From positions 1,116,001 to 1,180,000 of the forward strand of contig NZ_CP028913.1 in NCBI RefSeq assembly GCF_003070885.1: a stretch of DNA of 64,000 nt, in the 5' to 3' direction. Below the pieces are notes generated by a model. That model did not search any database. It had not been told where the DNA came from and worked only from the letters and a program-made list of their open reading frames with translations. Source of the stretch: Agromyces badenianii (GTDB lineage Bacteria; Actinomycetota; Actinomycetes; Actinomycetales; Microbacteriaceae). Both the position numbers and the translations under genes were made by a program. Of the stretch, positions 3,076 through 62,408 are shown in pieces. Within the stretch, counting starts at the first letter, position 1; each line of letters starts with the position of its first letter.

Positions 3076-4655
3076 TTCGTGCCGGCGGCGCGCCAGAGAT
3101 GCATCGAGGCGTAGCTGCGCCAGGGCGCCCACCGCCCGCCTCGGTGCGCGAGCTCGGTCGCGGTCGACGGCAGCGCCAGCCGCTCAGCGCCGTTGCGGAG
3201 CGCCAGATCGCCCGTGAGCAGCACGTCGGGCGCCCTGGTCACCCGCATCGCGACATACCCGGCCGTCCACGGGCCGATGCCGGGCACGGCGAGGAGCTCG
3301 GCCTGCAACTCGTGGCGCTCGCGCTCGGCCGCGACGACGAGGGCGCCCGTCTCGAGCCGGGCAGCGACGTCGAGGATGGTGCGCACGCGCGCCACGGGCC
3401 CCTTCAGCACCGCGCGACCATGCTCTGCGATCGCCGCCGCCGACGGGAAGAGCACCGACGGTGCGCCGTCGTCGTGCGGCACGACGCGCTCGCCGAGCTC
3501 GGCCGCGAGCCGTGCGAGCGAGGTGCGTGCCGCCTTCACCGACACCTGCTGCCCGACGAGCGCGCGGAACACGAGTTCGTGCGGATCGAGGCATCCTGGC
3601 ACCCGGATGCCCGGAGTCTCGGCGACGGATGCCGCGAGCGCCGGGTCGCGGGCGAGCACGGCGTCGATGGCGACCGCATCGGCGTCGAGGTCGAAGAGCC
3701 GCCGAACGCGCGCCACGAGCGGGGGCAGGTCGGCGAGGGTGGCGAGGCGGGCCTCGACGTCGATGGCGGGCGCCGCGGCATCGCCTGTGGCGGCGAAGGC
3801 GACGACGGCCGTTCCGCCGGGCAGCCGCAGCGTGCGCTCGTAGCGGTCGTCGCCGGCCCGCTCGACACCGTCGAGGGCGCGGGCTGCGAGCCAGGCGAAG
3901 ACGCCCGCGGCATCGAACGGCGGCCGCGCGGGCAGGCGCAAGCGCACGACTCCGCCCACGGCAGGGGCGTCGGGAACGTCGGGAACGTCGGGCAGGCTCG
4001 AGGTCGGCGCCGCGGACGCACGCGACGGACCCCGCTCGCGCTCGCGCACCCGGGCTGCGGCCCGCAACTCGAGCGGGCTGCGCTCGTAGACCTCGCGGAT
4101 CGTGTCGTTGAACTGTCGGATGCTGCCGAAACCCGAGGCGAATGCCACGTCGGCCGCCGGCAGCCCGGTCGAGGTGAGCAGCGCCCTCGCCGTCTGGGCG
4201 CGATGCGCGCGGGCCAGGGCGAGCGGACCTGCGCCGAGTTCGGCCGTGAGCACACGCGTGAGGTGACGCGGCGTGTAGCCGAGACGTGCCGCGAGCCCGG
4301 GCACGCCCTCGCGCTCGACGACGCCGTCGGCGATGAGTCGCATCGCCCGGGCGGCGAGGTCGTCGCGCAGGTCCCACTGCGGCGAGCCCGGCACGGCGTC
4401 GGGCAGGCAGCGCTTGCACGCCCGGAGTCCGGCCTCGTGCGCGGCGGCGGCCGTGAGGTAGAAGCTGACGTTGCCGGGCTTCGGCGCGACCGCCGGGCAA
4501 CTCGGGCGGCAGTAGATGCCGGTGGAGTGGACGCCCGTGATGAACTGGCCGTCGAAGCGGGCGTCTCGAGCCTGCATCGCCCGGTAACGCTCGGCGAACT
4601 CGGGGTCGTCGAGCGGATCGCTCGGTCGTCGACGGGTGCTCGCGGTCGTGGTCAT
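3069..4655 (-). CDS. alkA: Ada-AlkA fusion: methyl-phosphotriester sensor, AraC HTH and 3-methyladenine glycosylase
   Basis: A 528-residue DNA alkylation repair protein. Residues 1-90 form the Ada zinc domain with Cys49, Cys53, Cys80 and Cys83 (GIYCRPSCP and ACKRC); the first cysteine is the expected acceptor of methyl groups from phosphotriesters. Residues about 95-195 are an AraC-type helix-turn-helix. A proline/alanine linker is followed by an AlkA N-domain and an HhH-GPD glycosylase domain with [15 protein letters not shown] and the catalytic aspartate in LLTGDLALR. It should excise alkylated purines and self-activate on DNA damage. The Ada O6-methylguanine transferase (PCHR) module is absent, and no ogt gene lies beside it. 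This arrangement is known in actinobacteria. Confidence 0.9.
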
Positions 4656-58679: not shown

Positions 58680-59489
58680 ATGGCCGAGACGATTCCCACT
58701 CCGTACGAAGACCTGCTTCGCGACGTGCTCGAGCACGGTGCGGTCAAGACCGATCGCACGGGCACCGGCACGCGCAGCGTGTTCGGGCGGCAGCTGCGCT
58801 TCGACCTCTCGCAGGGCTTCCCGCTCATCACGACGAAGCGCGTGCACTTCAAGTCGATCGCCTACGAGCTGCTCTGGTTCCTGCAGGGCTCGTCGAACGT
58901 CGGCTGGCTGCGCGAACACGGCGTCACCATCTGGGACGAATGGGCCGACGCGGCGGGCGAACTGGGCCCGGTCTACGGCGTGCAGTGGCGCTCATGGCCG
59001 ACGCCGTCGGGCGAGACGATCGACCAGATCAGCGAGGTCGTCGAGCAGATCCGCACGAACCCCGACTCGCGCCGCCTCATCGTCTCCGCGTGGAACCCCG
59101 CCGACATCCCCGACATGGCGCTCGCGCCGTGCCATGCGCTCTTCCAGTTCTACGTCGTCGACGGCAAGCTGTCGTGCCAGCTCTACCAGCGCAGCGCCGA
59201 CCTCTTCCTCGGCGTGCCGTTCAACATCGCCTCCTATGCGCTGCTCACGCACATGATCGCGGCGCAGACCGGACTCGAGGTCGGCGACTTCGTCTGGACC
59301 GGCGGCGACTGCCACATCTACGACAATCACGTCGACCAGGTGCGACTGCAGCTCGAACGCGACCCGTATCCCGCCCCGACCCTGCGCCTCGCGCGCACGC
59401 CCGAGTCGGTGTTCGACTATGAGTACGACGACATCGTCGTCGAGGGCTACCAGCACCACCCGCCGATCCGCGCGGCCGTCGCCGTATGA
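58680..59489 (+). CDS. thyA: Thymidylate synthase
   Basis: A 269-residue enzyme that methylates dUMP to dTMP, with methylene-tetrahydrofolate as carbon and hydride donor, yielding dihydrofolate. The catalytic nucleophile is Cys151 in [12 protein letters not shown]; other conserved blocks are [62 protein letters not shown] and [12 protein letters not shown]. It is full length. The start at 58680 follows the leaderless promoter; the frame opens ten codons earlier. It overlaps folA by 4 bp, coupling production and recycling of dihydrofolate. Confidence 0.97.
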
Positions 59490-60010
59490 GCGAAGCGGAT
59501 GCCGCGGTGCCCCAGCTGGGCCTCATCTGGGCCGAAGCCCATCACGGGGTCATCGGGGCCGGCGGCGTGATGCCCTGGCACCTGCCCGAAGACCTCGCCC
59601 ATTTCAAGGCCGTGACCCTCGGCAGCCCCGTCGTGATGGGCCGCAAGACCTGGGACTCGCTGCCCGAGCGGTTCCGTCCGCTGCCGGGCCGCGCGAACAT
59701 CGTCGTCACCCGCAACGAGGAGTGGGCGGACGAGGGGGCGATCCGCGCCGGCTCGATCGACGACGCGCTGGCGTTGGCCGCGGCATCCGACCCCGAATGG
59801 ATCTGGGGCATCGGCGGCGGCGAGCTCTACGCCAGGCTCATCGATCGCGCAGACCGTCTCGAGGTCACCGAACTCGACCTCGACATCCCCGGTGACGCCT
59901 ACGCCCCGTCGATCGACCTGAGTTGGCGGCTGGTCGACACCGACGAGGCCGGAGCGAAGGTCTCGCGCGAGGGTGTCGGCTACCAGTTCCGCCGCTACGA
60001 GCGGCCCTGA
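59486..60010 (+). CDS. folA: Dihydrofolate reductase
   Basis: A 174-residue enzyme that reduces dihydrofolate with [33 protein letters not shown] has the substrate-binding Trp and the catalytic acid region; [21 protein letters not shown] and [10 protein letters not shown] bind NADPH, and [26 protein letters not shown] completes the fold. Its ATG overlaps the thyA stop (ATGA). This pairing is the classic thyA-folA operon. Confidence 0.96.
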
Positions 60011-60020
60011 CGCCTGCCCC

Positions 60021-60065
60021 CCTGACCCGTGGCGCCTACCCCTGACCCGTGGCGCCTACCCCTGA
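60021..60065. repeat. 20-bp tandem repeat after folA
   Basis: CCTGACCCGTGGCGCCTACC is present twice exactly (60021-60040 and 60041-60060) with five further matching bases. It lies 11 bp after the folA stop, in non-coding sequence. Confidence 0.92.
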
Positions 60066-60114
60066 TCATCGGCGCGCCCGGGCGCTCCGGCGCCGGACGC
60101 GCGACGCCCATGTC

Positions 60115-60192
60115 GTTCCTGCGGATATACGATCCGCCGCGCCGCAGGTGCCCACGATGTCCCGGCGTGGCAGATCGCATATCCGCAGGAAC
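60115..60192. repeat. Palindromic element A (left of endonuclease gene)
   Basis: Arms at 60115-60134 and 60173-60192 are complementary at 19 of 20 bases around a 38-base loop that itself contains an imperfect stem. The core GCGGATATACGATCCG (60121-60136) is repeated exactly in element B at 61278-61293. AT-rich ATATA in the arms is unusual for this DNA. Confidence 0.88.
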
Positions 60193-60315
60193 GGCCTCGG
60201 AAAGGGGTTGAGCCAGCCGAACGGACCCGTCCTCCACATGGCGCTGTCCGTCGACTCGGACACCGATCCTGCACGCGACGTGCCCGTGTCATCCGCACGA
60301 CGGCATGCTCGCCCG

Positions 60316-61212
60316 ATGGCGACGATTTCCCCGAGAACGGTCCACTCCGTCTGCGCTCTTCTCGGAGGGCTGGCCAGCGCCCGTGAGCTCGCGGCGCACG
60401 GCATCGGGCGGGCAGCGATCGCGCATGCGCTGCGTTCCGGCACGATCGAACGCGCACGTCGCGGTGTCTAAGTGGCGAGCGATTCGCCCGACGAACTCCG
60501 CATCGCGGTCGCCCACGGTGGTGTTCTCGGCTGTGCCTCGGTGGTACGCGAGGCCGGGCTGTGGGTGCTCCCGCTCGACGACCACGTGCATGTGGCGCTC
60601 CAGCCGCATGGCCATGTGTCTCCTCACGGCGGCTGCACGTGCGTGAGTCATTGGGGCGAGGCGGATGTCTCGGCGGGCCGAGTCTGCCTCGTCGATGCTC
60701 TCGCGCAGTTGCTGCTCTGCCTCGGTGAGGATGCCTTCTTCGCCGCGCTCGAGTCCGCCCTCCGGCTGCGGCGGCTGACGCGAGCAGAGCTGTCCCGGTT
60801 GAAGTCGCGCATCGCCGAGTCCAGATCCTGGCTCGTCGAGCTGGCCGGTGCCGAGTCGGAGAGCGGGCTCGAATCTCTGATGAAAGTGCGAATGCACCGA
60901 CTCGGGATCGCACTCGCGGCGCAGGTCGAGATCGTCGGGGTCGGTCGCGTCGACTTCGTTCTCGGCGACCGTCTGATCATCGAGGTCGACGGTCGTCCGG
61001 GACATGAGGGCGGTGAGAGTCGCCACAAGGACCGGGTGCGTGACGCAGCGGCTGCCGGTCTCGGATTCGACACCCTTCGGTTCGACTACGCCCTCGTCGT
61101 GCACGACTGGCCCCTGGTCGAAGCAGCGATCCTCGAGAAGTGCCGTCGGGGGTTGCATCTCGACAGCTGGGCCGAAGGCGTCCGCGAGGCGGCAGGGGCA
61201 GGGGCAGTCTGA
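60316..61212 (+). pseudogene. DUF559-type endonuclease gene interrupted by an in-frame stop
   Basis: The frame from ATG 60316 gives an N-terminal helical domain (SARELAAHGIGRAAIAHALR, SGTIERARRGV), as in AbiEi-like/DUF559 proteins of actinobacteria. A TAA at 60469-60471 stops it where the family has a tyrosine (RRGVY). A GTG follows at once, and the same frame continues for 246 codons: GGVLGCASVVREAGLWVLP, a middle helical part, and an endonuclease-like domain VDFVLGDRLIIEVDGRPGHE with the PD-(D/E)xK residues. One base change (TAC or TAT to TAA) explains the break. The second part might still be made from GTG 60472. The gene lies between two related palindromes. Confidence 0.75.
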
Positions 61213-61277
61213 GGCCGAGCTGAAGCCAGTCGCGGCAACCGCACGGCAGCGACCCGTGCCGTCTGCGCTGCAGTAGC

Positions 61278-61343
61278 GCGGATATACGATCCGACACCCT
61301 GATGATTCCGTGCTGTGAGCGGCGTGCCGGATCGTATATCCGC
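61278..61343. repeat. Palindromic element B (right of endonuclease gene)
   Basis: GCGGATATACGATCCG (61278-61293) and its exact complement (61328-61343) flank a 34-base loop. The left arm is identical to the core of element A, and the right flank CCGCAGGA is also shared, so the two elements, 1.15 kb apart, belong to one repeat family. Confidence 0.9.
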
Positions 61344-61420
61344 AGGAGAGTTTGAGTGGTGGAGGCGGAGGCCGGCGCGAGGCGGCGGCCGTGGTGACCA
61401 TCGTCGCCGGGTCGAACCGT

Positions 61421-61433: not shown

Positions 61434-62408
61434 GTGACTTCTGAGAATCCCTTCGGACAGGTGCTCGTCGCGCTCGTCACGCCGATGACGGCGGACGGCG
61501 AGGTCGATTGGCCTGGAGTCGAGAAGCATATCGACGACGTCATCTCGGCGGGCGCCGACGGCATCGTCGTCACCGGCACGACGGGCGAGACGTCCACGCT
61601 CACCGACCCCGAGAAGATCCGTCTCGTCGAGGTCGGCAAAGACGTGGCGGCGGGCCGCGCGAAGATCATCACGGGCGGCGGCTCGAACGAGACCGCGCAC
61701 GCCATCGAGCTGTACAAGCACAGCGAGCAGGCCGGCGCCGACGGCATCATGATCGTCACGCCGTACTACAACAAGCCCACGCAGGCGGGCATCCTCACGC
61801 ACTTCCGGCTCGTGGCCGACGCCACCGACCTGCCGGTCATCGTCTACGACATCCCCGGCCGCACGGGCGTGCCGATCAAGTACGAGACGATCCTGCGGCT
61901 CGCCAAGCACCCGAACATCCTCGCCGTGAAAGACGCCAAGGGCGATTTCTCCGAGGTGAGCCGGGTGCTGAACCAGACCGACCTCATGTACTTCTCGGGC
62001 GACGATGCGAACGTGCTTCCGCACCTCGCGATCGGCGCCTCGGGCCTCATCGGCGTCACCGCGAACATCGCGCCGGCGCCGTACCGCCAGATGATCGACG
62101 CCGTCAACGCCGGCGACCTCGCGACGGCGACCGCCGCGCACCAGCAGCTCGAGCCGCTCGTGCGCGCCGTCATGACCCACGTTCCCGGCACGGTCGCGGC
62201 GAAGTACATCCTGCACGGACTCGGCCGCATCGGGAGCCCCCGCGTGCGGCTGCCCCTCGTCGGACCCGAGGAGTGGGAGGCCGCGCTCATCGAAGACGAG
62301 ATCGACCACGTGCAGGGCATTCCGGGCGTCGACTTCCACAGATTCCGTCCCGACCGCAACGCCGCCGCCGGTGGTGCGTTGCCGAAGGTCGCGGGCACCA
62401 CGCGCTAG
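61434..62408 (+). CDS. dapA: 4-hydroxy-tetrahydrodipicolinate synthase
   Basis: A 324-residue TIM-barrel aldolase that condenses pyruvate with aspartate semialdehyde, the first step of lysine and diaminopimelate synthesis. The Schiff-base lysine is Lys166 in ILAVKDAKGD, and Tyr138 in IVYDIPGRTG is the proton relay. VTGTTGETSTLTDPEK is the substrate loop, and GADGIMIVTPYYNKPTQ holds the interface tyrosine. Length is normal with a 20-residue tail. RNase J follows 87 bp downstream, an order that is conserved widely in actinobacteria. Confidence 0.96.
   Translation: MTSENPFGQVLVALVTPMTADGEVDWPGVEKHIDDVISAGADGIVVTGTTGETSTLTDPEKIRLVEVGKDVAAGRAKIITGGGSNETAHAIELYKHSEQAGADGIMIVTPYYNKPTQAGILTHFRLVADATDLPVIVYDIPGRTGVPIKYETILRLAKHPNILAVKDAKGDFSEVSRVLNQTDLMYFSGDDANVLPHLAIGASGLIGVTANIAPAPYRQMIDAVNAGDLATATAAHQQLEPLVRAVMTHVPGTVAAKYILHGLGRIGSPRVRLPLVGPEEWEAALIEDEIDHVQGIPGVDFHRFRPDRNAAAGGALPKVAGTTR

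Follow-up and report, generated by a model that had tools for sequence, protein, structure and literature searches.

Here, we present an analysis of a nuclease-like gene and the two palindromes that bracket it in a 64,000-nucleotide (nt) window of the Agromyces badenianii genome (contig NZ_CP028913.1, positions 1,116,001 to 1,180,000; positions without a genome or locus name are counted from the first base of this window). The bracketed gene (60316 to 61212, plus strand) encodes an AbiEi-like part and a DUF559 (Vsr/EDxHD-like) nuclease, as judged from its translation, its orthologues and Pfam. Palindrome A (60115 to 60192) consists of half-sites at 60123 to 60144 and 60163 to 60184 around an 18-nt non-conserved centre (60145 to 60162), while palindrome B (61272 to 61349) consists of half-sites at 61280 to 61301 and 61320 to 61341 around an 18-nt centre (61302 to 61319); each is ~78 bp long, and neither is assigned a strand. 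Both contain the 16-base core GCGGATATACGATCCG, which is found exactly at 60121 to 60136 (plus), 61278 to 61293 (plus) and 61328 to 61343 (minus) and with two mismatches at 60171 to 60186 (minus). These four matches with at most two mismatches compare with a mean of 0.02 and a maximum of 1 in 100 shuffles. An earlier note on this DNA had described two core-sharing palindromes on either side of a DUF559-type gene; the core positions, the distance of 1157 bp from start to start and the PF04480 match to the gene confirm this. The ungapped arms of palindrome A (60107 to 60144 and 60163 to 60200, 18 nt apart) are 84% complementary, and the arms of palindrome B (61278 to 61297 and 61324 to 61343) are 95% complementary. 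The RNA-fold z scores are −6.8 (plus) and −7.2 (minus) for A and −2.6 (plus) and −5.6 (minus) for B. The upstream neighbour is folA (59486 to 60010, plus strand; PF00186) and the downstream neighbour is dapA (61434 to 62408, plus strand; PF00701). Between folA and palindrome A, CCCCTGACCCGTGGCGCCTA is present in two exact tandem copies (60019 to 60058).

The start codon of the bracketed gene was set by comparison with the orthologues in the genomes G018 and G021. An in-frame TAA (60469 to 60471) splits the gene into two open reading frames (ORFs), and because these two orthologues, the closest two that we read, have Y at this position, we consider the window copy a pseudogene. The ORF after the stop (60472 to 61212, plus strand) encodes 246 amino acids with 87% identity over 240 amino acids to the intact G018 orthologue. 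Compared with the orthologues of G018 and G021, most of its base differences affect third codon positions; for this reason, and because the orthologues have Y, the loss of the gene looks recent. The nuclease domain (60886 to 61143, plus strand; residues 139 to 224 of this ORF) scores 27.7 bits against DUF559 (PF04480; gathering cut-off, 20.6) and retains D, E, D, H, D and R, which are invariant in alignment A3. The ORF just before this one scores 29.9 bits against AbiEi_4 (PF13338; cut-off, 25). The N-terminal part of the protein matches AbiEi in Pfam and in the PADLOC profiles, and in structure comparisons with VIA-align the predicted fold is AbiEi-like over residues 27 to 203 and joined to the nuclease domain. 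The top-ranked fold match of the latter is the homing endonuclease I-Bth0305I, in a near-tie with 3hrl; its match to the EDxHD homing endonuclease profile is weak (E values of 0.022 and 0.0059). By test, an EDxHD/Vsr-type catalytic domain is present in the AbiEi-DUF559 protein. The related MTES_1575 nuclease domain, which lies in a different, fused protein, has been assigned to the Vsr family (PMC3710099). No transposase domain was found in the bracketed gene using Pfam, and three proteins tested against NCBIfam gave no match.

Palindromes A and B belong to a dispersed family, which we refer to as type A. The earlier note had suggested searching the genome for the core, and the core does stand alone elsewhere: the genome from which the window derives has six two-arm copies, namely A, B and four lone ones. 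Using exact 12-base arms, copies were found in 9 of 60 relatives (including this genome itself), with 25 copies in G036, and all nine copy-bearing genomes fall among the 37 same-genus genomes searched. The 45 copies analyzed consist of two 22-base half-sites around a centre that is free in sequence and fixed in length (18 nt in 40 copies and 19 nt in 5). In 12 orthologous pairs of copies, with orthology judged by the neighbours and the inner arm lying outside the search pattern, identity was 216/240 in the inner arm, 113/217 in the centre and 386/720 in the flanks. In the inner arms of the 45 copies, left equals right at a frequency of 0.450 compared with 0.529 after shuffling, and pairing is 0.589 compared with a shuffled mean of 0.632. 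Because the left and right inner arms match each other no better than expected by chance, the constraint on the arms looks like that on two protein-bound DNA half-sites rather than on a paired stem. A covarying RNA stem was set aside, as the changes in the inner arms are not compensatory. Also, an RNA family was not supported, since Rfam searches with 60111 to 60192 and 61272 to 61349 gave only the microRNA families mir-5595 and MIR4380, far under their gathering scores, which we take as a false signal caused by a long hairpin stem. At inner positions 13 to 19, the two half-sites differ beyond what is expected from shuffling (in 1960 of 2000 shuffles, the equality was at least that observed), and the palindrome behaves as if it had a left and a right end.

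The strong predicted stems, and the finding that 32 of 43 type-A copies lie outside called ORFs, would suit ordinary bidirectional terminators or insulators around the gene. The ORF caller used here is crude: it placed 11 of the 43 palindromes inside an ORF and missed folA or thyA at two loci. Against terminators, this caller puts seven of the 32 copies between divergent ORFs, although for two of these the placement is an error due to the missed folA or thyA. Moreover, terminators do not need a shared sequence, the inner-arm changes do not compensate each other, and control genes lack shared flanking repeats (see below). The result by which the earlier note would have abandoned its proposal, that the element occurs only as terminators and never flanks cargo, was not what we observed. 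Altogether, we regard the terminator explanation as very improbable.

Among 60 genomes of the genus, the folA-dapA interval contains a DUF559 gene in 32, a gap of less than 200 bp in 18 and other content in 8, and was unreadable in 2. Thus, sites without the patch exist, as the earlier note had asked; as to its further expectation of an empty site with one palindrome or none, G005 by eye seems to keep one degenerate palindrome. The type-A palindrome is found in 7 of the 32 genomes with the gene at this locus. Among the units with other arms, 9 of the 23 scored have matching repeats on both sides, for instance TGCGAGTCGTCGGGA in G074 and GTAGGA in G004. Where recognizable, the inner end shared by these other palindromes is similar to ACRCGCCG, and their centre is 8 or ~18 nt, the two lengths differing by one helical turn. 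All seven genomes in which a type-A bracket surrounds the gene at folA-dapA carry the type-A arm, as do 6 of the 53 others; the reversed-pattern control gave none. Six of the seven also have lone copies (G075 has none). A simple rule by which copies accompany the bracket at this locus is weakened by G034 and five other genomes, which hold type-A copies and in which we saw no type-A bracket at folA-dapA, the gene not having been looked for elsewhere in them. Because the nuclease gene is widespread at the locus and a nuclease is predicted to be encoded within the unit itself, the suggestion that a small non-autonomous mobile unit interrupts thyA-folA-dapA-rnj fits less well than the alternative in the same note, a palindrome family that carries an endonuclease or is its target, which is supported and is seen again at other DUF559 genes. 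Similarly, a simple one-locus insertion sequence or miniature inverted-repeat transposable element (MITE) was set aside, given the 32 of 60 occupied loci and the several palindrome types. Two other kinds of content were seen at this locus. In some Agromyces genomes (L116, L107 and L127, and likewise G076, G026 and G032), an AbiEi-like ORF is present that lacks the nuclease, and ACTCCTGAAAA-type repeats lie close to it. Of three such ORFs tested in Pfam, two matched AbiEi_4 at E ≤ 0.01, and one of these two exceeded its cut-off. In G010, the gap of 1581 bp contains a highly repetitive ORF (L117, 1534 to 2496) and, therefore, nearly identical repeats arranged as an array.

In seven genomes, DUF559 genes at other places (25 genes in total) are bracketed likewise, each by arms of its own, as in the case of G000:776666, which is bracketed by CGTCGATCTTCGCCC repeats. 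To score brackets, upstream and downstream flanks were compared without reference to any motif, so that the score measures shared repeats. In Agromyces, 25 of 48 units and 0 of 89 control genes scored at least 20; at a threshold of 17.6, these numbers were 27 of 48 and 2 of 89. Among the scored units away from folA-dapA, 12 of 18 pass. The scoring left out 17 of 65 units (7 duplicates and 10 for which the chosen ORF was not DUF559), the ten including G012 and G025, in which the gene exists and the wrong frame was picked. The score of G027 was only 12.6, although its two type-A palindromes are plain to see. A second set of 63 loci was fetched with a second DUF559 subfamily and comprises 16 loci from Agromyces and 47 from other genera (Subtercola, Naasia, Schumannella, Cryobacterium, Gulosibacter, Buchananella and others). 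In this set, 44 of 63 loci (33 of the 47 non-Agromyces and 11 of the 16 Agromyces loci) scored above the 95th percentile, and 34 above the 99th percentile, of 588 mismatched pairs (12 of 600 had been dropped for sharing neighbour genes), compared with 0 of 85 control genes. Ten more loci of this set were searched in Pfam; six gave DUF559, and four, from Mycobacterium/Mycolicibacterium, gave AbiEi_4 only. When a repeat is counted as palindromic if at least one side exceeds the 95th percentile of 220 control windows, the repeats are palindromic in 23 of the 27 passing Agromyces units and in 25 of the 44 passing loci of the second set. At one DUF559 gene (L172; G004:C1:737995), the flanks share an inverted stretch of ~112 bp (score, 87.8) that is longer than that of other units and not palindromic by this test.

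Arm similarity rises with protein identity (rho 0.183; 0/2000 permutations; 66 units). This comparison included only units scoring at least 18, and two of the 63 loci were dropped because they repeat genes among the 48 Agromyces units. The fraction of pairs with an arm score of at least 17 was 0.00 below 50% protein identity, 0.10 at 50 to 60%, 0.50 at 60 to 75% and 0.75 above. At the level of sequence, the repeat type goes with the protein.

Lone sites differ between related species. The palindrome at G034 1099739/G000 1841029 is represented by one surviving exact arm in G018 and is absent from G065, G081 and G073, where two genes nearly abut; in G068 and G021, the sequence at this place is unrelated. 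A second lone site (G018 1282842/G000 2948036/G036) is absent from G034, G065, G021 and others and degenerate in G081. At a third, G034, G021 and G018 have type-A arms, G065 and G068 have GAGTCGCAGGA-type arms at the same place, and G000 and G081 have none; the GAGTCGCAGGA arm type also flanks the nuclease gene of G065 itself. For the third palindrome family, the partner threshold of 17/28 is weak, being reached by 79 of 530 random positions, and we relied on the recurring offset of 46 to 48; several single-arm matches of this family have no partner at this offset. No target-site duplication was readable at the lone sites compared, where the intergenic DNA is too diverged. The orientation of the module also varies. 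Among pairs of the 63-locus set with both neighbours in common, it is reversed in 34 and in the same direction in 126, and both orientations occur within each of two locus groups (11 and 7 loci), with no conflict. Between Schumannella L311, with repeats at 2266 to 2353 and 3364 to 3451, and Amnibacterium L312, the gene matches forward, while reverse matches of the flanks extend up to 2217 and resume at 3507; flanks and repeats are arranged similarly in Agreia L296 and Cryobacterium L325. Opposite orientations may result from either in-place inversion or independent insertion in the other direction. Carriage by phages or plasmids was rejected: the exact type-A pattern was not found in viral contigs, and the protein was matched in 0 of 50,697 phage records and 3 of 72,556 plasmid records (Tsukamurella).

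These observations bear on two further explanations. First, the AbiEi-like winged helix could bind the palindromes as operators and regulate its own gene, with the lone copies forming a small regulon and nothing moving. Residues 27 to 203 resemble AbiEi, and paired half-sites at a constant spacing would fit a DNA-binding dimer; as the AbiEi-like part is expected to bind DNA, and as nuclease-less versions persist at folA-dapA in some genomes, the operator explanation keeps some weight. However, it does not account for the second palindrome downstream of the gene in bracketed units, the flipped modules, the lone sites that come and go between related species or the retention of a nuclease domain with its invariant residues, and we consider it unlikely. 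Second, the palindrome could be the target of a homing gene, with lone copies unoccupied, the bracketed gene marking an occupied site and its flanks representing a duplicated target. The fold match to I-Bth0305I, with its reported target of nearly 60 bp, is in line with this idea, as are folA-dapA loci with the module, with nothing and perhaps with one palindrome. A homing gene, however, normally interrupts its target, while here both flanks are complete palindromes; moreover, none of the few sites compared is occupied by the module in one species while its orthologue in another species has an intact lone palindrome of matching type. We therefore rate homing as less probable still than the operator explanation.

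Read from the sequences, the gene lies between palindrome copies, other DUF559 genes often lie between different ones, some palindromes also occur as lone copies, arm similarity follows protein relatedness, and both orientations exist. We give an even chance to the reading in which A and B mark either end of a nuclease-palindrome module that is REPtron-like and carries an EDxHD/Vsr-type nuclease; binding, cutting and movement are the conjectural parts of it. According to this model, a dimer of the protein would bind its own palindrome at both half-sites, spanning the sequence-free centre of fixed length, and would cut in or near this centre. Repair or recombination at the break could then copy palindromes to new intergenic places and convert older palindromes to the resident arm type, and break repair may occasionally let the whole module insert, flip or be lost. 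In the window strain, in which the gene is broken, the palindromes would now be stranded. With slightly less than even confidence, we suggest more broadly that AbiEi-DUF559 modules represent a second, independently evolved class of nuclease-palindrome mobile elements across Actinobacteria, in which each protein, as a site-specific nuclease, would spread a private palindrome through the chromosome and convert palindromes already present to this type, and the module would move or flip between two copies. The association of palindromes with DUF559 genes is established in Agromyces and likely beyond it, the mechanism is plausible but unproven, and the class would be new if the mechanism holds. In our searches of open-licence literature, judged mostly from titles and abstract openings, we found no published description of a link between DUF559 and palindromes. 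Pfam still lists DUF559 as a domain of unknown function; this function becomes directly testable if every such gene has its target next to it. If the mechanism is true, nucleases that spread palindromes evolved on two or more occasions from unrelated folds, and the protein-palindrome pairs would represent a natural catalogue of long-target DNA specificities.

We compared the module with several known systems. Relative to insertion sequences and MITEs, the bracketed gene lacks a transposase domain and no duplication was readable; elsewhere, a transposase was sought only as Y1_Tnp. The palindrome brackets and the AbiEi-like part distinguish the module from Vsr mismatch endonucleases. It resembles AbiE toxin-antitoxin systems in its N-terminal part, as seen in the Pfam and PADLOC profiles and the fold; however, no AbiEii partner lies beside the window gene, whose neighbours are folA and dapA, and the protein carries a nuclease domain. 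I-Bth0305I is the top-ranked fold match of the nuclease domain, tied with 3hrl, with a weak profile match in addition, and it has been reported to recognize a long dimeric target, with which the two half-sites at fixed spacing, forming a core of 62 to 63 bp, would be compatible. Different from I-Bth0305I, the module protein is joined to an AbiEi-like part and had no hit in the phage records, and different from EDxHD homing endonucleases, the gene stands by itself between folA and dapA, has a complete palindrome on either side and lies in no intron, intein or interrupted target. In the case of REP/RAYT systems, palindromes flank the RAYT gene (PMC3733652), REPINs are commoner where this gene is present, and RAYT is described as single-copy and vertically inherited (PMC8049555). 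While at least 69 REPINs are reported per Escherichia coli genome (PMC8049555), we found ~30 palindrome copies at most; the element here has two half-sites around a fixed centre of 8 or 18 nt; and a Vsr-fold nuclease attached to an AbiEi-like part takes the place of an HUH tyrosine transposase. Y1/HUH transposases (PF01797, Y1_Tnp) were not matched in any of 60 Agromyces genomes at E ≤ 0.001, while the same search was positive in 5 of 14 control genomes. Because of this result and the other fold of the enzyme, we do not consider the module a member of REP/RAYT, and a RAYT origin was rejected. Rather, the likeness lies in an enzyme gene of the chromosome whose flanking palindromes are also found dispersed on their own, which applies to the window family and in part to the other DUF559 genes; from comparative evidence, movement of the repeats may be catalysed by the enzyme, as in REPtrons.
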